A DNA stretch of 33,034 nucleotides. Origin: Clostridiales bacterium. Lineage in GTDB: Bacteria > Bacillota > Clostridia > Christensenellales > Aristaeellaceae. Position numbers and translations under genes: made by a program. The notes beneath the pieces were generated by a model, which was not told where the DNA came from, did not search any database, and saw nothing but the letters and a program-made list of their open reading frames with translations. Below are positions 19,715-25,019 of the stretch, piece by piece. The DNA is taken from positions 1-33,034 of the forward strand of contig JAAYLK010000043.1 in assembly GCA_012521895.1 (NCBI GenBank), given 5' to 3'. Position 1 is the first letter of the stretch. Every line of letters begins with the position of its first letter.

Positions 19715-20836
19715 TTATACAAAACTCTCCACACTCTGGCTCCGCCTCAAGGCGAACACGCCCAGGGCGAAGAACAGCACCAGGAAGCCGGTCAAAGCCA
19801 TCAGGTCGGTGCCCTGGGTGAACAGGGACTGGCCTTTCTGGATGAGGGTCATGGCGTCATTGGCCCAGTAATGGGGCGTGATCATGGCCAGCTTCTGCAT
19901 GAACGGCGGCATCAGCCACAAAGGCCAGAAGCAGCCGCCCAGCATGGCGAACACCGTGGTCACAATGGGAATGATGGAGGAGTACACCGCGCGGGACCCA
20001 GCCACCAGGGCCAGGAAGATGCCAAAGAAAATCCAGATGAGGCCAAAGTAGAACCACAGCAGGTACATGCTGAAGGTGGTGTTCACCGGCAATAGGGTCC
20101 TGGTGATCACAAAGAGGGTCACCAGGTTGAACACCAGAAAGATAACAGCAGTCAGAAAGTTGGCAATCAGGTAGTCGAACTTGCCCACCGGCGCCTGCCG
20201 CAAGCGGCTCAGGGTGTTCCATTGCTTTTCAGATAGAATCAGGCTGGTGGCCTGCATCATGCTCATGGCCAGCACATAAAACAGCATACCGCTTGCAAAG
20301 CTCAGGGTTTGGTTGACCTGAGCCTCGTTGATGCGGCGGGTTTCATACCGAAGCCCGCTTTTCTCCATCGCCGCCATCTCCTCAACCAGCTCAGCGCCGC
20401 TTTCCGCCTTGACAATGTCCTGCAAGCGGTTGAGGGAGGACAGGTACATGTCCAGGCTAACGCGCAGGCTGGTCACCACCTCCTGGCCCTTGAGCGTGCG
20501 GATGGTCAGCTGGGGCTGTTGCCCGGCCAGGAAGGCCGCTTCAAAGCCTTCCGGAATCAGCACCACGGCCTCCTCCTTGCCATCCAGCAGGCTCAGGTCG
20601 ATGTCTGCCGCCTCAATCGGCTGCACCCGGCTGCCATCCCGGGCGATGTAATTTGCAAGCGCCTTGGAAAGCGGGCTTTGGTCCTCATCATGTACAGCGA
20701 CAAACAGCTTGGCGTCATTGGTGGAGTTGTTGAACAAACTCACCGAGAACAGCATGATGGGCAGCACCAGCAGCATAATCAGGGTGCCCTTCCTGGCCAG
20801 CAAAACCCGGATGTTGTTTTTAATAAGCGGCCACAC
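19715..20836 (-). CDS. ABC-2 type transporter permease (second subunit)
   Basis: This 373-residue protein has one N-terminal membrane helix (about residues 15-36), a long extracytoplasmic region (about 40-190) and five or so C-terminal helices, the standard layout of ABC-2/YhgE-type exporter permeases. The helix GMLFYVLAMSMMQATSLILSEK followed by LRQAPVGKFDYLIAN is the typical cytoplasmic coupling segment. The start is a GTG at 20836 behind GAGGAGGG and overlaps the previous permease gene by 17 bases. Together with that gene and the ATPase upstream it makes an exporter, probably for a drug, peptide or lipid-like compound. The substrate is not evident. Confidence 0.88.
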   Translation of the reverse strand: MWPLIKNNIRVLLARKGTLIMLLVLPIMLFSVSLFNNSTNDAKLFVAVHDEDQSPLSKALANYIARDGSRVQPIEAADIDLSLLDGKEEAVVLIPEGFEAAFLAGQQPQLTIRTLKGQEVVTSLRVSLDMYLSSLNRLQDIVKAESGAELVEEMAAMEKSGLRYETRRINEAQVNQTLSFASGMLFYVLAMSMMQATSLILSEKQWNTLSRLRQAPVGKFDYLIANFLTAVIFLVFNLVTLFVITRTLLPVNTTFSMYLLWFYFGLIWIFFGIFLALVAGSRAVYSSIIPIVTTVFAMLGGCFWPLWLMPPFMQKLAMITPHYWANDAMTLIQKGQSLFTQGTDLMALTGFLVLFFALGVFALRRSQSVESFV

Positions 20837-21929
20837 GGTCAGAGCCCTCCTCTCGTTTGAACAGCCAAAAGGCTGTCAGGTACATCAGCAAACTGATTCC
20901 CAGCAGTTTCACAGAGGCGCTGATGATCGCTTCCCGGCTGCCGCGGTAGATATACCGGAACAGCCCCTGGTTGACCCAGCCCACCGGGGAAAACCCGGCA
21001 AGCTTTGAAAACACCTCGTTATCCATAGACACCATCATGTACCCGCCGCCTGTGAACACCATGGCGAAAATCATAATGTTCAAAAAGGCCGAAGCCGCGG
21101 ATTCCGAGCGCAGCACCTGGTAGGCCAAAACACCCAGAGCGGTTGAGAACACCGCCAGAGGCAGCAGCCACGCCAGCACCTGGGGGATGCTGCGGTAGGA
21201 GATGCCGTACACGAAGTGGTTAAACAGCACGATGATGGCTGCCTGGAGCATCAGGATCACGCAGGAGGCGATGATTTTCACCATAAAAACCTTGCTCATT
21301 TGGTAGGGGGAGGCCTTCAGCCTCAGCCCCGTGCGCTCACCTTTTTCCCGGGACAGCATGGACACCATCTGCAGGCTGCCATACATCATAATCATGGTAA
21401 GCATGGTCACCCCGTAGTATCCAAAGGAGCTGGGCTCCACCCGGCCATCAATGCCCTCCACCGTCACATGCTTCTGAACCTGCGGCGTGAGCAGATCCAG
21501 GCGGCCTGCCTTCAGTGCGGCGCCTGTCAGGTTGGCCTGCTGAAGAAAGGCGTTGGTGTACATACGCACCATCATCGCGTCCATCCCCGTGCCCTCATCG
21601 CTGTGCAGGATAACCGCCTTGTCCGTCAGTTCCACATACTGCTTCAGGCTGCCTTCCCGCGCGCCTTCCGCGGCTTCCTCAGCTGTCATGTTTTCAAAGA
21701 CAATGCCGCTTTGGCCGCTGTTTGCCTGGTACAAGCGAGATAGCATCCCACCGTCTGATACCAGGGCCATCCGCGTTTGCGGCAAGTCCAGCGTGCGGAC
21801 GGAGAGGTTGGAAAACGCCATGCCCAGCACCCAGGTTAGCAGCAGCGGAAACAGCAGCATCAGCAGCACGGTCTCCGGCGCCGCCAGGCTGTGCAGCGCT
21901 TCCTTTTTCAAAAATTGCAGTGTTCTCAT
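20820..21929 (-). CDS. ABC-2 type transporter permease (first subunit)
   Basis: This 369-residue protein has the same layout as its neighbour: a first helix (about residues 18-42, TVLLMLLFPLLLTWVLGMAF), a long extracytoplasmic domain (about 45-180) and a C-terminal membrane block with SREKGERTGLRLKASPYQ as the cytoplasmic coupling region. Two non-identical permeases of this sort usually form a heterodimer with one ATPase type. The ATG at 21929 lies 10 bases past the ATPase stop region, behind GGAGGCGGGG. It is transcribed with the ATPase and the second permease. Confidence 0.88.
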   Translation of the reverse strand: MRTLQFLKKEALHSLAAPETVLLMLLFPLLLTWVLGMAFSNLSVRTLDLPQTRMALVSDGGMLSRLYQANSGQSGIVFENMTAEEAAEGAREGSLKQYVELTDKAVILHSDEGTGMDAMMVRMYTNAFLQQANLTGAALKAGRLDLLTPQVQKHVTVEGIDGRVEPSSFGYYGVTMLTMIMMYGSLQMVSMLSREKGERTGLRLKASPYQMSKVFMVKIIASCVILMLQAAIIVLFNHFVYGISYRSIPQVLAWLLPLAVFSTALGVLAYQVLRSESAASAFLNIMIFAMVFTGGGYMMVSMDNEVFSKLAGFSPVGWVNQGLFRYIYRGSREAIISASVKLLGISLLMYLTAFWLFKREEGSDRVAAY

Positions 21930-21938
21930 CCCCGCCTC

Positions 21939-22862
21939 CTAATCCCGCAGCCGCTTGCCCGTCAGGGTGAGGAAGACGTCCTCCAGGTTGGGTTCCTCAA
22001 TGGACAGGTCCAGCACCTCGTTGTGCGTTTGCCCCAGCACCTCCAACATGTCCCTCAGCTGCGCGTGCTTGCCCCGGCAGGTGAAGCGCAGCGCGTTGCC
22101 GTTCAGGTCAATCTTCTCCACACCGCTCACCCGGCTGAGCTTATCCACATCGGGCATGCCCTTCACCTTGATGGCGATGTACCAGTTCTCCTCAATCAAG
22201 CCGCGCAATTCACTCAGGTTGCCCTGGGCCACGATCTGCCCCGCGTCCATGATGGCAATCCGGCTGCACAGCTGCTCCGCTTCCTCCATGTAATGCGTGG
22301 TATACAAGATGGTCGTGCCCTCGCGGTTCAATTGCAAAATCGCCTCCATGATATGGTTGCGGCTTTGCGGGTCAATCCCTACGGTAGGCTCGTCCAGAAT
22401 CAGCAATTTGGGCCGGTGCACCAGCCCGCAGGCGATGTTCAGCCGGCGCTTCATACCGCCGGAAAAAGTCTTCACCTTGTCCTTGGCCTTGTCCAAAAGC
22501 CCCACAAAATCCAGCGTTTCCAGCGCCCGCTCATTCAGTTTTCTCCCGGACAGGCCATACAGCGAACCAAAGAACTTCACATTGGCCAAGGCGCTCAAAT
22601 CATTGTAAATAGCCAGCTCCTGCGGCACGATGCCCAGCAGGTACTTGGCCTTTGTCAGCTCCTTGTCCAAATCCAGCCCGCCGATGGTCACCTGGCCGCT
22701 GTCTTTTTGAATCAGGCCGGTAATCACGTTGATCGTCGTGGACTTGCCGGCCCCATTGGGCCCCAGCAGGCCGTAGATTTCGCCCTTTTCCACCTTAAAG
22801 CTCACATCGCTCACAGCCAGCTTGCTGCCATAGCGCTTCACCAGTTTCTTCACTTCCAGCAT
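21939..22862 (-). CDS. ABC-2 exporter ATP-binding protein
   Basis: This 307-residue ATPase has Walker A GPNGAGKS (34-41), signature FSGGMKRR (133-140) and Walker B LLILDEPT (about 153-160) followed by VGIDPQSR, the pattern of drug/antibiotic-type exporters (CcmA/DrrA class). The C-terminal region (about 215-305) is the small accessory domain common in this class. I choose ATG 22862 because AAGGAGGAAT lies 10 bases upstream; the longer open frame lacks a ribosome site. A strong terminator hairpin ends only 30 bases before this ATG, so expression may be controlled by read-through. The two permease genes follow directly. Confidence 0.92.
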   Translation of the reverse strand: MLEVKKLVKRYGSKLAVSDVSFKVEKGEIYGLLGPNGAGKSTTINVITGLIQKDSGQVTIGGLDLDKELTKAKYLLGIVPQELAIYNDLSALANVKFFGSLYGLSGRKLNERALETLDFVGLLDKAKDKVKTFSGGMKRRLNIACGLVHRPKLLILDEPTVGIDPQSRNHIMEAILQLNREGTTILYTTHYMEEAEQLCSRIAIMDAGQIVAQGNLSELRGLIEENWYIAIKVKGMPDVDKLSRVSGVEKIDLNGNALRFTCRGKHAQLRDMLEVLGQTHNEVLDLSIEEPNLEDVFLTLTGKRLRD

Positions 22863-22891
22863 GTTCCCATTCCTCCTTGCATCCCCATCAT

Positions 22892-22918
22892 AAAAAAAGA
22901 CCGGGCCCATGCCCAGTC
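22892..22918 (-). terminator. Rho-independent terminator or attenuator before the exporter ATPase
   Basis: On the minus strand an 8-bp stem with one G-T pair (22911-22918 with 22899-22906) and a four-base loop is followed by seven T's (22892-22898). It is a textbook terminator. It sits 30 bases upstream of the ATPase start, too close for a normal promoter to lie between, so it probably acts as a conditional terminator in the exporter leader. Confidence 0.8.
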
Positions 22919-22950
22919 AGGAAAGTCACGAGTTGGGGTGACGAAAGTCA
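22917..22950. repeat. 12-base direct repeat with 22-base period
   Basis: TCAGGAAAGTCA (22917-22928) and TGACGAAAGTCA (22939-22950) share AAAGTCA and most flanking bases, with start points 22 bases apart, about two helical turns. The arrangement suits a dimeric DNA-binding protein such as the adjacent NarL-type regulator. It could instead belong to a dispersed intergenic repeat. Confidence 0.5.
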
Positions 22951-22984
22951 TATCGGGGGGCGTGGAGGACGGGGACGGGGAACC

Positions 22985-23010
22985 CTTCTTTTCTTTGAAA
23001 AGAAAAGAAG
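22985..23010. repeat. Perfect 12-bp inverted repeat
   Basis: A pyrimidine-rich arm (22985-22996, starting CTTCTTTTC) is perfectly complementary to 22999-23010 around a two-base centre. It lies beside G-runs (22955-22980). As RNA it forms a weak A/U-rich hairpin; as DNA it may be an end or centre of a small repeat element. Confidence 0.65.
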
Positions 23011-23279
23011 CAAAAGAAACTTTAATGGGAGATGTGATTTTGTTAACTTGTATTTGCAACAGAACAAAAATGTTCCCATTGACCAAATAGAAACTGGAAC
23101 AGGGTAAACTTTGACATCAATGCTAAAGTTTTTGCCCGGCTTTTTTCAAAAGGGGCAGAATGCTGCCGCCCGCTGTGCGGGATGCAGGCTGCATGACAGC
23201 CCAATGAATCAGGGGGGGCGAAAGCGGCAGCGAATCGTCTGACCATGATGAATTGAGGTGTTTACGGGCGTCTCCCGTC

Positions 23280-23888
23280 CTACAACTCCCCCTTGAGGTG
23301 GCTGACGGCGATCTGCGTGCGGTGCGCCAGGCCGGTCTTTTGCAGGATGGCGGTGATGTGGTTTTTGACGGTGCCCTCGGAGATGAAGAGGGCATCGGCA
23401 ATCTGGCGGTTGGAGAGACCGTCTGCAATGGCTTTCACAATTTCGTTTTCACGTTCGCTGAGTTCAGCTAATTTGGCGGTACTTGCCGGCTTCAGGCTGC
23501 GGCGCAGCGCTTCCAGGGCCACTTCGTCAAACACGCTCTTGCCCTGGTGCAATTGCGCGATGGCCTGGATGATGGCCGCGGGCTTGGCGCTTTTAAGGAG
23601 GTAGCCGTGCGCGCCCCCGCGCAGGGCCTTGACGATTTCGGCGTCATCATCAAAGGTGGTCAGCACCAGCACCCGCGTCTGCGCCGCCACCTCCTTCAGC
23701 ACGTCCAGGCCGCCCTTTAAGGGCATGCGCAGGTCCAGCAGCATCACATCGCACTGCGGGGCCAGGCGCAGGGCCTCCAGGCCGTTTTCCCCAAAGCCCA
23801 CGATGTGGATGCCCTCCTTGCCTTCCAGCAGGATGCCCAGGGACTCCCGGATGAGGGCGTCATCATCAATGACCGCGACCTTAATCAT
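23280..23888 (-). CDS. NarL/LuxR-type response regulator
   Basis: This 202-residue protein has a receiver domain (about 1-118) with acidic pocket DDD at 8-10, phospho-acceptor D52 in LLDLRMP, and the conserved Thr and Lys of VLVLTTFDD and LLKSAKP. A LuxR-type helix-turn-helix follows (about 142-200, LSERENEIVKAIADGLSNRQ and GTVKNHITAILQKTG). It overlaps the kinase gene by eight bases, with AAAAAGGAG ahead of the ATG. Such pairs commonly control an adjacent ABC exporter in Firmicutes, and the exporter genes lie directly downstream on the same strand, so they are the likely target. Confidence 0.93.
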   Translation of the reverse strand: MIKVAVIDDDALIRESLGILLEGKEGIHIVGFGENGLEALRLAPQCDVMLLDLRMPLKGGLDVLKEVAAQTRVLVLTTFDDDAEIVKALRGGAHGYLLKSAKPAAIIQAIAQLHQGKSVFDEVALEALRRSLKPASTAKLAELSERENEIVKAIADGLSNRQIADALFISEGTVKNHITAILQKTGLAHRTQIAVSHLKGEL

Positions 23889-24858
23889 CTTGCAGCTCCT
23901 TTTTGGGCAGCAGGGTAATCACCCGCAGGCCCCCCTCATTGTGCACAATCAGGCTGCCGCCCTGCTCGCGGGCGCGCTCGCGCATGCCCGACAGCCCCAT
24001 GCCCTCCACGATGTCCTCGCAACCGCGCCCGTTGTCGGAGATTTCCAGCCGCGCCATGCCGGGCAGGGCTTTGAGGGTAACCGTGGCCTCCGTCGCCCCG
24101 GCGTGGCGGATGACGTTGGTCAGCGCCTCGCGCGTGTTGCCCAGGATGACCTGCCAGAGGCTGTTTGGTAGGCTTTCCACCTGCCCTTCTTCAACAAACC
24201 TGATGACCAGGCCGCTGTCCAGGCGAAAGCGGTCCAGCAGGGCCTGCAGCTCAGATAGCTTCAGGGCGGGCACCTCCGCGCGCATCTGGTGGACGGCCTG
24301 ACGCACCTGGGCGATGCCCTCGCGCAGCTGGCTGGCCGCGCCCTGCATCAAGCCCTTGGCGCGGTCGGGCTCCCTGTCCACCAGTTCCGTCGCCGCCTCC
24401 AATTGCAGGGTGGCCGCCGTCAGGCTGTGGCCCAGCAGGTCGTGGATTTGCTGGGCGATGGCCCGCCGTTCCTCCAGCCGGGCGTTGAGCGCCGTCTGGC
24501 TTTCGTAGTTCTCCTTCATGAACTGGTAGCGCAGGCTGTTCTTCTGCTCAATTTTAAGGCGGGTATTCTCCCCCGTGAGCAGCTTTTGCTGGCCTTCGCG
24601 ATGGCTTAAGTAGATGTACAGGGCCGTGTAAAACAGGTAGGCCAGCAGCAGGATGAGGGGCTGGTACGGCAGGAGGAAGGAAACCAGCCCCAGGTTGATG
24701 ACGGAAAAGGCCGGATGCACCGCCAGCGCCAGCACGCGCGCCGCGAAAAAGAACAGCAGCACCACCAGGATGCCGGAAAAACCCTGGAAGGTGAGTAGGG
24801 CATACACGCCGTAGCCGGTCAGAATCAGCAGGTCTGTCAGCAGCAAAAACAGGTTCAT
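23881..24858 (-). CDS. Sensor histidine kinase, HisKA_3 (NarL partner) type
   Basis: This is a 325-residue kinase. About four membrane helices occupy residues 1-85 with almost no extracellular loop, as in intramembrane-sensing kinases. A coiled linker (about 90-130) leads to the HisKA_3 box RRAIAQQIHDLLGH with phospho-accepting H139. The ATPase domain has N241 in NTREALTNVIRHA, D275 in DNGRG and the GLSGMRER box. The ATG at 24858 is chosen because AGGAGGTG stands about 10 bases before it; the upstream open frame has no membrane or domain logic. The lack of a sensor domain suggests it responds to membrane stress or to the loaded exporter. Confidence 0.92.
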   Translation of the reverse strand: MNLFLLLTDLLILTGYGVYALLTFQGFSGILVVLLFFFAARVLALAVHPAFSVINLGLVSFLLPYQPLILLLAYLFYTALYIYLSHREGQQKLLTGENTRLKIEQKNSLRYQFMKENYESQTALNARLEERRAIAQQIHDLLGHSLTAATLQLEAATELVDREPDRAKGLMQGAASQLREGIAQVRQAVHQMRAEVPALKLSELQALLDRFRLDSGLVIRFVEEGQVESLPNSLWQVILGNTREALTNVIRHAGATEATVTLKALPGMARLEISDNGRGCEDIVEGMGLSGMRERAREQGGSLIVHNEGGLRVITLLPKKELQDD

Positions 24859-24993
24859 CTTCGGCAGCACCTCCTCTTCCTTTTGCCACAGCGGCAGACT
24901 TCCTTCATGAGTGCAGTATATAACAAAATCGGTGAACCCGGGCTGAAAGTTGGCAGATGAAATGGTAAAACCTTGATTAAAACCACAAAGCGA

Positions 24994-25019
24994 AAGGCCG
25001 GGGGACAATCCCCGGCCTT
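24994..25019 (-). terminator. Terminator of the exonuclease III gene
   Basis: A 10-bp perfect stem (24994-25003 with 25010-25019, AAGGCCGGGG type) with a six-base loop lies 21 bases beyond the exonuclease stop on the minus strand. It is followed by TTCGCTTTG, a short imperfect T-run. It separates this gene from the kinase gene downstream. Confidence 0.75.

Follow-up and report, generated by a model that had tools for sequence, protein, structure and literature searches.

DesR of Bacillus subtilis binds the des promoter at two sites. The motif of this regulator is given as ATGACA-N2-TGTCAT, and the candidate motif of the pneumococcal regulator RR11 (TCS11), ATGACATTTGTCAT-N7-AGTGACA, has been likened to it; the TCS11/ABC operon is described as the sole specific target of RR11 (PMC11034029). 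A further related system is LnrJK-LnrLMN (YfiJK-YfiLMN) of B. subtilis, which serves the linearmycin/amphotericin response. In the portion of the report on yfiJKLMN that was available, a terminator is placed after yfiK, the following 143 bp up to yfiL are described as lacking a recognizable promoter and as failing to complement, and read-through was proposed (PMC4672918). An LnrJK-dependent inducible promoter has also been described: a 147-bp fragment was active and a 127-bp fragment was not, both ending at −16, while cutting the 3′ end of the lnrL fragment back to −57 abolished the activity (PMC7472640). By arithmetic from these fragment lengths, as far as they are given in the accessible part of the report, the lnr promoter needs DNA between −163 and −143, which is the terminator region.

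We analysed a stretch of 33,034 nucleotides from a Clostridiales bacterium (GCA_012521895.1, contig JAAYLK010000043.1), referred to here as the window. It contains the gene set of an LnrJKLMN-type module, with kinase, regulator, terminator, ATPase and two permeases in the same order as in B. subtilis. The genes lie on the minus strand, and a gap of 417 bp separates the regulator from the ATPase:

23881-25008, minus strand: sensor histidine kinase with a DesK-like core (HisKA_3, HATPase_c; Pfam)
23280-23888, minus strand: response regulator, receiver plus LuxR/NarL-type helix-turn-helix (Pfam)
21939-22862, minus strand: ABC exporter ATPase (DrrA-like; Pfam), first gene of the controlled operon
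20820-21929, minus strand: ABC-2 permease (Pfam ABC2_membrane_3)
19715-20836, minus strand: ABC-2 permease (Pfam ABC2_membrane_3)

The window thus links a HisKA_3 kinase, a LuxR-type regulator and target genes. In sequence comparison with solved structures, the best relative of the kinase was DesK (7ssj, E = 9.2e-17); the regulator matched VraR (9e-30), DevR, ChrA and NarL, with DesR lower (2e-24). The two proteins are therefore relatives of DesK and DesR. The ATPase scored 303.8 bits against TIGR01188, under the cut-off of 312.45. Its start was listed at 22910, within the terminator hairpin, but alignments with homologues begin at 22862. The permease at 20820-21929 scored best against SagH, a bacteriocin/toxin exporter subunit (1.9e-55, 188 bits), for which the cut-off, 450 bits, lies far above. 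A search of a plasmid collection gave no match.

The region in front of the ATPase contains the following features:

22939-22950, minus strand: operator box A, TGACTTTCGTCA, of the TGAC-N4-GTCA type, conserved in position and geometry
22916-22928, minus strand: operator box B, TGACTTTCCTGAC, beginning with TGAC, 22 bp from box A, conserved in geometry
22892-22918, minus strand: intrinsic terminator with its stem-loop at 22918-22899 and its T tract at 22898-22892; it shares sequence with box B and the promoter spacer
22887-22892, minus strand: −10 hexamer TATGAT; box B starts 36 bp before it (promoter scan and conservation)
22872-22878, minus strand: ribosome-binding site AAGGAGG, read from the sequence and present in relatives too

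An earlier note on this DNA had pointed to a classic terminator ending 30 bases before the ATPase ATG and, just upstream, to two AAAGTCA-containing 12-mers spaced 22 bases apart; both are there. The repeat covers 22916-22928 and 22938-22950 (13 nt, 85% identity, spacing 22). On the minus strand the terminator reads GACTGGGCATGGGCCCGGTC followed by T7, with a stem of 8 pairs, 6 of them G-C, and the T tract directly after it. It folds at −15.1 kcal/mol (z −2.76), and 3 of 200 shuffled sequences were as stable. The same note held that no room was left for a promoter between the terminator and the ATG (22862). We observed that the −10 hexamer sits right after the T tract and shares its final T. 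A consensus scanner assigned this promoter a weak −35 (9/12). The two-box pattern matched the window once, with 0 mismatches, against an expectation of 0.01 with up to 2 mismatches; it is not a chance occurrence.

The paired repeat looks like a site bound by the adjacent response regulator, and the suggestion in the earlier note that a response regulator binds here fits well with the evidence from sequence. As in RR11, TGAC elements stand 22 bp apart before an ABC operon, so that the second element expected of a DesR/RR11-type tandem operator is present. Compared with the palindromic primary site of RR11 and DesR, ATGACANNTGTCAT, the window has ATGACTTTCGTCAC, which keeps the TGAC/GTCA core and departs at the inner A, the inner T and the last T; its half sites enclose TTTC in place of the common ATTT. 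Most loci of the class fit the primary site, the inner A and T each being present in 17 of 18. The available part of the RR11 report describes no terminator inside the operator (PMC11034029), whereas the window has one. An operator of the DesR/RR11 type is thus known, and the built-in terminator and compact placing would make this one a variant of it. Literature searches on terminators that overlap regulator sites returned no relevant precedent, and we make no claim about the overlap being unpublished beyond those searches.

The same geometry recurs in other genomes. In front of the ATPase, the loci L026, L027, L028 and L029 have TGAC-N4-GTCA, a TGAC element exactly 22 bp further on, then at a constant distance a hexamer resembling a −10, and a Shine-Dalgarno sequence. 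In the distant loci L036, L037, L038 and L041, where the kinase and the regulator face away from the exporter, the geometry is identical, and L040 keeps it with one extra base. From the loci seen first (L026-L029, L036-L041) we built the pattern TGACN4GTCA-N10-TGAN8AC-N23-TANNNT, with the pattern reversed as the control; it embodies the distances of 22 bp from box A to box B and 36 bp from box B to the −10, each counted from box start. It occurs once in the genome of the window. Scans at three ranks found it in 4 of 297 genomes of the order, 25 of 393 of the class and 17 of 398 of the phylum, and the reversed control gave 0 in each; the class and phylum scans have 20 genomes in common, 3 of the 17 phylum genomes had already been seen, and the loci are related to one another and not phylogenetically independent. 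Three of the four matches in the order stand at the exporter. The fourth (G162), where an ATPase was looked for and not found, was taken as chance. Four class matches come from one genus, which is included in the 25 and left out of the following count: of the 21 class genomes with a single site (own genome included), 20 have an exporter ATPase immediately downstream in the same orientation. Among the new phylum loci it lies directly downstream in all 14, the weakest ATPase having 33% identity (E = 1e-43).

Columns that the pattern leaves free are conserved as well. Among 18 deduplicated class loci, the inner ATTT of box A is kept at 17, 14, 15 and 17, the CAC-T after box B at 17 and 18, and an A as the fifth base of the −10 at 16; the consensus reads ATGACATTTGTCAT ... 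TGAY...CGNCACT ... TANNAT. A protein-anchored search recovered the ATPase at E <= 1e-70 in 11 of 150 genomes of the family. An exact TGACN4GTCA stands 87-95 bp before the ATG in 10 of these 11 loci (about 0.001 expected per locus), and in the eleventh (L135) box A is a variant one base off.

Two observations from the scans concern other arrangements. The genus set apart above (g313; G653, G696, G752, G764; L140-L143, L164-L168) carries arrays of boxes, GTGACYAAAGTCAC units followed by GTGACTAATGGCACTT and a −10. They precede genes whose translations, judged by eye, resemble WXG100-type proteins, a C39-peptidase-type ABC protein and a lipoprotein, which suggests a larger regulon that would use the same site. 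In L163 a kinase and a regulator lie upstream of the composite, and the stretch covered includes no ATPase.

The hairpin behaves differently from the boxes. Folding placed it at the same position, with box B forming part of its 5′ arm, in five compact loci (L027, L028, L120 of G009, L132, L149), where the regulator stop lies 4 bp before box A and terminator, operator and promoter fit within ~60 bp. The idea that the terminator is a chance feature absent from relatives was dropped on this folding evidence. The window itself has lost the ancestral-type stem and has another in its place. In 47 distinct loci (L038 and L155 are one locus, counted once among the 38 below), a fold was scored as a hairpin if its energy was −7 kcal/mol or lower and its tail was rich in T. 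All 9 loci in which a same-strand upstream gene ends no more than 46 bp from box A had one, as did 3 of the 38 remaining loci (Fisher P = 1.6e-7), and at −12 kcal/mol the counts were 7 of 9 and 2 of 38 (P = 1.9e-5); the second, later set of loci alone gave 3/3 and 1/11 (P = 0.011), all P values being indicative since the cut-off was chosen after the values had been seen and the loci are related. The three exceptions with a hairpin are the window, where the regulator ends 329 bp upstream, L040 with a divergent gene, and L189 with a same-strand gene 566 bp away. By the same test L026 has a poor terminator (−5.1), and L029, L125 and L134, with an opposite-strand gene between regulator and ATPase, have none. 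The hairpin tracks the closely placed same-strand gene upstream; therefore it most likely ends the transcript of the sensor operon. In L026, the closest relative (same genus), a sigma-factor-like gene and an apparent anti-sigma partner, both named by eye, lie between regulator and exporter (L026:1282-2953).

The distance of 329 bp in the window stems from an insertion:

22951-23279, no strand assigned: 329-bp insertion between the regulator stop and box A, made up of interspersed repeats at least in part; 4 bp at this place in the five compact loci
22967-23026, no strand assigned: interspersed repeat R1, multi-copy, with a 12-bp palindrome (22985-23010) and part of a G-run
23152-23207, no strand assigned: interspersed repeat R2 (core), found again at 6 further sites of the same genome, 78-91% identical

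R1 has copies at one other place in the own genome (G000:C100), at 12 places in G009, 3 in G004 and 1 each in G005 and G008, and the mobility of these repeats is putative. In G009 the repeat appears as CTTCTTTTCTTT(G)AAAGAAAAGAAG-CAAAAGAAC (L006, L011, L013, L015-L022, L024), several copies seemingly right after stop codons. Other copies of R2 (L171, L172, L173, L175) extend beyond the matched core. The G-run block (~22955-22982) and the perfect 12-bp inverted repeat (22985-22996 / 22999-23010, 12/12 pairs, centre of 2 nt) listed in the earlier note are both present, and a search of the own genome for the palindrome pattern with up to 3 mismatches found only itself. As they lie in inserted repeats, they have no tie to the exporter promoter. 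The features named in that note thus belong to two unrelated things, the composite promoter and the inserted repeats.

We therefore read 22887-22950, at a probability of roughly four in five, as a stretch in double use: an activator-dependent promoter for the exporter operon, with an operator of the DesR/RR11 kind, and the terminator of the sensor operon. The 22-base repeat, the terminator and the −10 would then form one composite exporter promoter. The earlier note had offered a mobile intergenic repeat as the source of the terminator, and such an element could also have brought the 22-base repeat, R1 and R2 being multi-copy and adjoining. It was right that interspersed repeats were inserted here. 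Apart from the R1 part, however, 22780-23040 is single copy in the genome, multi-copy occurrence being confined to 22967-23026 and 23152-23207; and relatives with no such insertion have the boxes in the same geometry. The terminator and the 22-base repeat (22892-22950) lie outside the repeats, because they are single copy and are kept, or in the case of the hairpin replaced in place, in those relatives. We regard an origin in a mobile repeat as very improbable. The hairpin might also arise from the symmetry of the operator and a T-rich spacer, terminating nothing beside a promoter that alone is real; we consider this unlikely. In its favour, box B contributes a large share of the 5′ arm in several relatives, spacers rich in T are frequent next to −10 sites, and 12 kb hold 23 terminator-like sites against 13.3 expected. 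Against it, the presence of the hairpin goes with how the upstream gene is oriented and not with the operator (the 9/9 and 3/38 above), and the window has replaced a lost stem by a different one at the same place.

The earlier note also proposed control of the exporter leader by read-through or antitermination, from a promoter upstream of the hairpin in the sensor genes or the inserted stretch. The same idea is in print for B. subtilis yfiJKLMN, as far as the accessible part of that report goes (PMC4672918), and the T7 ending 30 bp before the ATG, weak promoter-like matches upstream (23149-23120, 23046-23019) and a 178-nt leader that folds with z −3.62 are consistent with it. These upstream sites, however, together with a C-rich strand able to pair with the Shine-Dalgarno sequence, lie in or derive from the inserted repeats and are absent from the compact relatives. 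The stem sequences vary among relatives with no conserved alternative fold, Rfam gave no known leader at gathering scores, and loci with the sensor genes in the opposite orientation lack the hairpin but keep the boxes. The marks of an attenuator or riboswitch-type leader, a promoter upstream of the terminator and a conserved alternative fold, were accordingly not found. Two RNA switches were considered and rejected: long-range pairing of the C-rich strand with the Shine-Dalgarno sequence, the former being in the insertion and outside a transcript starting near 22880, and pairing of box A with box B (GUCAC/GUGAC) as an antiterminator, whose 5 pairs were judged too weak. Right behind the T tract stands a conserved −10 whose distance to the conserved two-box operator is constant; the predicted start of the exporter transcript therefore lies beyond the hairpin, at about 22878-22882. 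This start, predicted in silico, falls between 22870 and 22892, where the note itself had said that a start would speak against its proposal. Read-through control of the exporter is quite improbable in our judgement.

Under the composite-promoter reading, the neighbouring regulator, phosphorylated in answer to a presumed inducing compound, would bind box A and box B as two dimers 22 bp, or two helical turns, apart. Assuming a standard 7-nt discriminator, the boxes would be centred near −64 and −42, and the bound regulator would bring in RNA polymerase at a promoter whose −10 is good and whose −35 is poor, in the general manner of class II activation. Exporter transcription would begin near 22880 with a leader of ~18 nt, and the hairpin, lying between box B and the −10, would be absent from the exporter's own mRNA. 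It would instead stop transcripts arriving from the kinase-regulator genes, so that the exporter stays off without a signal. The requirement for −163 to −143 at the lnr promoter fits an operator inside the terminator. Two points differ in the published descriptions: the lnr leader is longer than that of the window, and activity is lost on cutting back to −57 (PMC7472640), which the window geometry, with its −10 36 bp past box B, does not predict.

It is also possible, as a tentative generalization, that this is a recurrent design in Bacillota, the phylum sampled: whenever a sensor operon leads into the exporter under its control, the proximal site of the activator would double as a terminator arm, packing operator, terminator and promoter into ~60 bp. 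If so, activator binding could also alter termination as a roadblock and a terminating polymerase could occlude the promoter, either of which would couple the two operons; the early verdict that no promoter follows the terminator before B. subtilis yfiLMN would be explained as well.

A terminator just before a gene thus need not mean control by read-through, since an operator and a promoter can overlap it, and an inference that is easily made, and was printed for yfiJKLMN, would thereby be corrected. The scan pattern finds such exporter promoters across hundreds of unannotated genomes, its reversed control giving none, and predicts which exporters a DesR/LnrK-like regulator would switch on. 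The overlap also makes it possible to test clearly whether termination and activation get in each other's way on one piece of DNA.
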